From contig CAKZQD010000222.1 of NCBI GenBank assembly GCA_937139485.1, positions 1 to 36,148 on the forward strand: DNA of 36,148 bases. Direction: 5' to 3'. Within the stretch, counting starts at the first letter, position 1, and the number at the start of each line of letters is the position of its first letter. The stretch comes from an uncultured Bacteroidota bacterium. Lineage in GTDB: Bacteria; Bacteroidota; Bacteroidia; Chitinophagales; UBA8649. Position numbers and translations under genes: made by a program. The notes below the pieces were generated by a model. It was given only the letters and a program-made list of their open reading frames with translations. It had not been told where the DNA came from and did no database searches. Shown in pieces: positions 32,431-32,908 of the stretch.

Positions 32431-32483
32431 TCAAAATCATCATCACATTTTCATTGTTGCACCTTAAAAAATGTTCTTTCGCC

Positions 32484-32521
32484 TTTCTTTTGTCTTGATA
32501 CAAAAGAAACAAAAAATCAAG
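32484..32521 (+). repeat. Hairpin with loop complementary to downstream sequence (potential H-type pseudoknot)
   Basis: TTTCTTTTGT (32484-32493) and ACAAAAGAAA (32500-32509) form a perfect 10-bp stem. Its entire 6-nt loop CTTGAT (32494-32499) is complementary to ATCAAG (32516-32521), six bases after the stem. I recognise this core (CTTTTGTCTTGAnACAAAAG followed by a TCAAG) as a sequence often repeated between genes in Bacteroidota genomes; this is from memory. Confidence 0.7.
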
Positions 32522-32554
32522 CCTGAATTTATTTCTTAACGCAAAAATCACTTA

Positions 32555-32674
32555 AAAATCCTAATCTTAAAAAATTACATTGCTTGTAAATTCTTAAACT
32601 TTGTCGCACGAAAAAACCTTGTTTTAAATCCAGTAATTCGTTTCCGAAACCATTTTAAGATCTTAACGGATTTT
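32555..32674 (+). repeat. Large imperfect inverted repeat (three nested stem segments)
   Basis: Three segments pair in nested order: AAAATCC (32555-32561) with GGATTTT (32668-32674), ATCTTAAAA (32564-32572) with TTTTAAGAT (32653-32661), and AATTAC (32573-32578) with GTAATT (32633-32638). The first two segments are separated by 2 and 6 unpaired bases; the innermost is offset by a 14-nt bulge on the right side. A CTTAACG direct repeat lies at 32535-32541 and 32662-32668. Confidence 0.5.
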
Positions 32675-32908
32675 GAAGCAATTTTTACTAAAATAAATAA
32701 TGGCGAAAAAATTCACTTATTTAATCAAAATTCTGAGTTTTTTTATATCAATATTCTTTAATCGGTGTTTATTGTTGGTTTATCATTTTTATAATACGGT
32801 TTCTTATGCTCACGCATTAGCTGTATCTTTGAAATAAGTACAAATGCAAACCGAGAAGACTTTGTGAAAAAGTACAAATTGTTGAACATAATTATTCAAT
32901 AGACTAAT

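Follow-up and report, generated by a model that had tools for sequence, protein, structure and literature searches.

The locus considered here raises the question of whether a hairpin in an intergenic spacer belongs to a conserved folded structure and, if so, on which strand this structure acts and what kind of unit carries it. The spacer (600 nt, divergent) is situated in the window, i.e., the whole stretch of 36,148 nt of DNA from an uncultured Bacteroidota bacterium that was analysed, and is flanked on one side by a minus-strand gene for an NAD-dependent epimerase (PF01370) and on the other by an ORF of 116 aa that has no Pfam match. On the plus strand, positions 32484-32493 (TTTCTTTTGT) and 32500-32509 (ACAAAAGAAA) form a perfect 10-bp stem enclosing the loop CTTGAT (32494-32499), which is complementary over all 6 nt to ATCAAG at 32516-32521, with the linker CAAAAA (32510-32515) lying between the stem arm and this partner. 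The original prediction had described exactly these parts, namely the 10-bp stem, its loop and the partner six bases on, and all of them are exact in letters and position. When the whole window was simulated 60 times with a first-order Markov model, a 10-bp hairpin (loop of 5-7 nt) with a complement of the whole loop within 20 nt never arose.

The repeat is larger than the part described in the prediction: it is a non-coding element of around 200-220 nt (32484-32704), composed of the pseudoknot and an interrupted hairpin of around 180 nt, and the pseudoknot at 32484-32521 is its 3' end on the minus strand (5'-long interrupted hairpin-pseudoknot-3'). Its parts and the adjoining flank are:

32433-32483, no strand: flank past the pseudoknot, common to the second copy in the same genome and outside the unit seen in other genera
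32484-32521, minus strand: H-type pseudoknot (arms 32500-32509 and 32484-32493; loop 32494-32499 pairing with 32516-32521), supported by conservation and co-variation
32510-32515, minus strand: linker, TTTTTG on this strand, the U-rich loop 1 of a short-linker knot, predicted to lie as third strand over AAAA in the long stem, as inferred from the mirror rule of long-linker relatives
32521-32561, minus strand: 3' arm of the long interrupted hairpin in the minus-strand fold, with the recurring internal-loop motif TTCTTAACGC (minus strand: GCGTTAAGAA)
32562-32667, minus strand: hairpin interior and apex
32668-32704, minus strand: 5' arm of the long hairpin, with the 5' end of the element at around 32704, to where the similarity to the second copy also extends

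The long hairpin, which lies 3' of the knot on the plus strand, exhibits internal loops that recur (GCGTTAAG / TAGC on the minus strand) and, at its apex, a motif (CTGTTTGAGC...GCGAGTT) found in Bacteroidota as well as in Variovorax. A coding reading is excluded, since linkers of 6, 13, 14 and more nucleotides leave no conserved frame. The genome itself (a draft of 242 contigs) contains one further copy (C137:15555; 78% identity over 250 nt), in which the hairpin is kept, the loop reads TTTGAT and the downstream partner is lost, such that one of the two local copies is without the pseudoknot.

Concerning distribution, a loop-blind pattern scan of genome contigs found the same hairpin in at least 120 stretches, mostly from Bacteroidota among the matches listed, and among these the partner sequence tracks the loop sequence in most copies. 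The exact core is present in 11 of 297 sampled Bacteroidota genomes, the reversed control pattern in none, which bears out the expectation of a common intergenic repeat in this phylum. The repeat is not limited to Bacteroidota: of 114 genomes from the class to which a Lysobacteraceae genome belongs, 6 carry a proteobacterial form (GTTACTTTCTTTTG / CAAAAGAAAGTAAC, linker CAAAGAAAA), which also occurs on Caballeronia and Variovorax megaplasmids as well as in Pasteurella multocida and the fusobacterium Ilyobacter. The family hence spans at least three phyla (Bacteroidota, Gamma-/Betaproteobacteria, and Fusobacteriota); metagenome-assembled genomes (MAGs) labelled Thermotoga, Phycisphaerales and Clostridia were left out of this count, as binning errors are possible. 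A sample of Clostridia MAGs gave three pattern matches, no excess over the reversed control, and nothing in a phage collection was convincingly homologous to the element of the window. At the gathering score, Rfam 15 matched nothing in the window, nor did it match the element at nine further loci, and a permissive threshold gave only weak sub-threshold matches, and no family, on 611 bases. The Acido-Lenti-1 RNA (RF01687) just reaches the gathering threshold at L069:272-317 in Chryseobacterium takakiae. The stem-loop families Pam-1 and Hin-1 were set aside, as they are described as uptake-sequence repeats (Cozzuto et al., PMC2267715). In the Melioribacteraceae (L071), a second intergenic repeat, CGCCGTATGGCGTGAAAC, adjoins the element and also occurs without it.

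Co-variation is seen in the loop-partner pairing as well as in the outer stem and the long hairpin, as is characteristic of a maintained H-type pseudoknot. In 51 distinct long-linker knots (26 different loops), selected by long stem and A-rich linker only and thus blind to loop-partner pairing, this pairing amounts to at least 4 consecutive bp in 44 cases, whereas swapping the partners among knots gave on average 6.3 and at most 12 in 200 swaps. The short-linker Bacteroidota set points in the same direction (28 of 50 vs 19.6); it is less diverse and includes hairpins in the wrong orientation. Among 36 Chryseobacterium copies, compensatory (double) changes occur in 25 of 52 pairs, a value reached by none of 500 shuffles, and 96.2% of the cells of the 203-nt unit are paired. 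The double-change counts are inflated by relatedness among the sequences; slid controls nevertheless fall to 36-59% paired. RNAalifold recovered the hairpin and the loop-partner stem unaided. In the Bacteroidota core, the inner long stem was fixed by the search pattern, such that co-variation could not be assessed there. Compensatory changes in loop and partner, which were to be sought in aligned copies, are consequently present, and the proposition that co-varying parts would indicate a conserved structure rather than junk is upheld by both co-variation and conservation. The prediction would have failed if no other copies existed or if these kept the hairpin and lost the complementarity; other copies exist and most retain it, the second copy in the same genome being an exception.

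The strand described originally is probably not the acting one. Non-Watson-Crick pairs in the long hairpin comprise 83 GU and 5 AC when read on the minus strand, but 9 GU and 29 AC on the plus strand, and the outer long stem shows 31 A.C vs 5 G.T on the plus strand. Furthermore, the folding energy is lower on the minus strand in 31 of 34 Chryseobacterium copies and in 115 of 155 copies overall, with -35.7 vs -21.0 kcal/mol (plus strand) for the window element. Because GU pairs fall on the minus and AC pairs on the plus strand, and because of the lower minus-strand energies, selection most likely acts on the strand complementary to that originally read; the predicted pseudoknot thus stands as a conserved, co-varying fold, but probably not with regard to its strand. 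That the fold acts as RNA and not as single-stranded DNA is likely, although not proven, as there are no transcript data and single-stranded DNA tolerates G.T too.

The linkers of the long-linker knots mirror the stem. Where the purine arm reads A(a1)GA(a2), the plus-strand linker reads CA(a2)GA(a1): b1 = a2 applies in 20 of 22 informative knots, whereas the direct-repeat reading, b1 = a1, applies in none of the 22. The observed (a1,a2) states are (3,3), (3,4), (4,3), (4,4), (4,5) and (3,5). On the minus strand, the linker U(a1)CU(a2)G is parallel to A(a1)GA(a2), which corresponds to the pyrimidine-motif triple-helix code (U.A-U / C+.G-C). In an H-type knot, the path of loop 1 runs across the long stem's major groove. 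Topology and code therefore agree, and the linker may represent the third strand of a major-groove triple helix; at present the code is met at the level of the letters only. For the window element, which is of the short-linker type, the triples would be limited to U4 over A4. To our knowledge, there is no other reason for a mirror repeat at this linker.

Telomerase RNA possesses a short first stem and an A-rich second stem, whose major groove accommodates the pyrimidine loop 1. The guanidine-III riboswitch equally is an H-type pseudoknot with a major-groove triple helix (PMC5696562). The element resembles both in being an H-type pseudoknot with a (predicted) pyrimidine loop 1 in the major groove; it differs from them in its third strand, a near-perfect mirror of 4-9 purines, and in its location in an interspersed repeat with a long hairpin, without ligand or gene class. 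In transposon RNAs of plants and fungi, the ENE forms a triple helix that clamps the poly(A) tail in an internal loop. Both would have in common a mobile-element RNA with a triple helix (predicted here) close to its 3' end, whereas the present element is bacterial and its third strand is the linker of a pseudoknot, not a clamped poly(A) tail.

Hairpin and knot together behave as one discrete block that is gained or lost. Comparison of orthologous Chryseobacterium spacers between argC and argD shows that locus L258 lacks exactly the stretch from hairpin base to knot end that is present in L256 and L263. To the left, the flank of L258 matches that of L256, and to the right that of L263; the site shows no terminal inverted repeat, and any target duplication is limited to one ambiguous base. 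It is the only clean empty site, and a gain is indistinguishable there from a loss. Several Chryseobacterium species are without the element at argC-argD. High copy number with sharp edges is found in a Chitinophaga-binned MAG (240-nt unit with inverted ends of around 18 nt) and on the Caballeronia replicon pNK81 (19 knots on 1.68 Mb), where near-perfect palindromes of around 600 nt carry one knot per arm (L198-L207). Terminal inverted repeats are hence present in these two units and absent at the Chryseobacterium empty site. Facing knots elsewhere are 330-504 nt apart (the 288 entry and the overlapping BACK entries of the pair list are artefacts of the self-complementary hairpin), and at these distances no gene-carrying version was found between them. 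Tandem arrays of 2-4 copies with a unit of 271-312 nt occur in Chryseobacterium (L069:2701-3800, L033, L026, L146), e.g., four units between argC and argD. Several argC-argD copies of this genus (L246, L262, L264) contain a GACTACGTCGAATCTTCGATT-like insertion of around 20 nt in the pseudoknot loop; similar letters also flank copies in Flavobacterium (L040, L066). On viral contigs (L157/L194 = IMGVR_UViG_3300045051_001524, L185, L187), knots are situated a few hundred to around 2,400 nt from the ends, on one of them oppositely oriented at the two ends, which possibly are prophage borders.

The element shares with REP, REPIN and BIME sequences and their RAYT proteins that it is short, non-coding, palindromic, intergenic and multi-copy and occurs in facing pairs, but it is much longer, pseudoknotted and not beside the sampled Y1 transposases. 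Like MITEs, it is non-autonomous, without ORF and sharply ended, with near-identical copies in some genomes; unlike in MITEs, the Chryseobacterium empty site shows neither terminal inverted repeats nor, beyond one ambiguous base, a target duplication, and the fold rather than the ends is conserved across phyla.

We propose that the pyrimidine/purine stem of 10-14 bp is locked when its loop forms 4-6 bp with the segment immediately upstream on the minus strand, and that the U-rich (or U-C) linker would lie in the major groove, parallel to the purine strand, as U.A-U and C+.G-C triples. The fold is presumed to act in RNA rather than in single-stranded DNA; copies might spread as non-autonomous mobile units whose 3'-terminal fold is recognised by an unidentified enzyme supplied in trans, and this fold may also resist 3' trimming. 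We are evenly divided on whether this reading as a whole, i.e., a non-coding repeat with a minus-strand hairpin and a 3' triple-helix pseudoknot, acting as RNA and mobilised in trans, is correct; triple helix, RNA action and mobility are inferences. Against it stand the lack of transcript data and of an identified mobilising gene, the single clean empty site, a triple helix deduced from nucleotide order alone, the loss of the pseudoknot in the second local copy, the Bacteroidota core stem fixed by the search pattern, and the independent A.C cases in stems, which by our own count amount to roughly nine lineages vs two. A wider interpretation, that the family is a cross-phylum class of mobile non-coding elements marked out by a triple-helix pseudoknot at their 3' end, of which the folded strand (RNA in a retroposon-like manner, or single-stranded DNA) is copied by an unidentified trans-acting enzyme, and thus a bacterial analogue of SINEs, remains tentative and rather unlikely.

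Among the competing explanations, chance palindromes or simple AT-rich repeats mistaken for a pseudoknot would fit the AT-rich sequence and the second local copy without partner, but co-variation has already refuted this explanation, and the reversed-pattern controls and the simulated windows also speak against it. It is improbable that the element is an RNA used by the host in untranslated regions, whether to stabilise mRNA or as a terminator or anti-terminator, and spreads only incidentally, though parts of the evidence suit it: its position is kept in many Chryseobacterium species, the Pasteurella copy lies between dapF and the DUF484-xerC genes, and the element tends to avoid promoter regions (de-duplicated neighbourhoods: 66 tandem, 27 convergent, 15 divergent), the copy in the window itself being situated in a divergent spacer. 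Raw counts had suggested a codirectional 3'-UTR element after stop codons; this was dropped, since with one count per neighbourhood the tandem contexts comprise 31 codirectional vs 35 opposite cases and show no strand preference relative to genes. Moreover, the sequences read show no T-run after the pseudoknot, and the absences from argC-argD also speak against a host function. All-against-all BLASTP of the neighbours revealed no gene family linking unrelated loci; what it did recover were Chryseobacterium loci inherited vertically and ABC-type ATPases, which are common.

Harder to dismiss, although still unlikely in our judgement, is a folded minus-strand single-stranded DNA that serves as substrate of a single-strand transposase or recombinase, as do IS200/IS605 or REP ends, without any RNA role. 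It would suit the empty site, with no terminal inverted repeats and at most one ambiguous base of target duplication, the strand-specific fold without codirectional gene bias, and the facing pairs, in which both strands carry a folded 3' end. Y1_Tnp genes are present in 15 of 17 carrier genomes, but also in 5 of 14 controls, with the background rate in Bacteroidota not measured, and no copy lay within about 1 kb of 20 sampled Y1_Tnp genes (scan control L069 positive); the conserved G-U pairs also fit RNA better. In one carrier genome (G108), ten Y1_Tnp matches were seen, several of them partial or with in-frame TGA. No tetranucleotide of GTAG/GGAG type was noticed 5' of a short palindrome in the copies read, without a systematic search. 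Of the functions suggested at the outset (small RNA, mRNA 3' element or REP-like unit), none is settled: the codirectional 3' element lacks support, and a link to RAYT was not seen.

The motif is outside Rfam, and no earlier description was found in the open-access literature searched for the letters of the motif and for repeats of this kind (subscription papers were outside the scope). If the fold is real, it would constitute a widespread, unannotated telomerase-type RNA or single-strand motif in interspersed repeats of bacteria from at least three phyla. It would offer a triple-helix model system that can be tested directly, with compensatory variants supplied by nature, and would raise the question of which enzyme recognises it.
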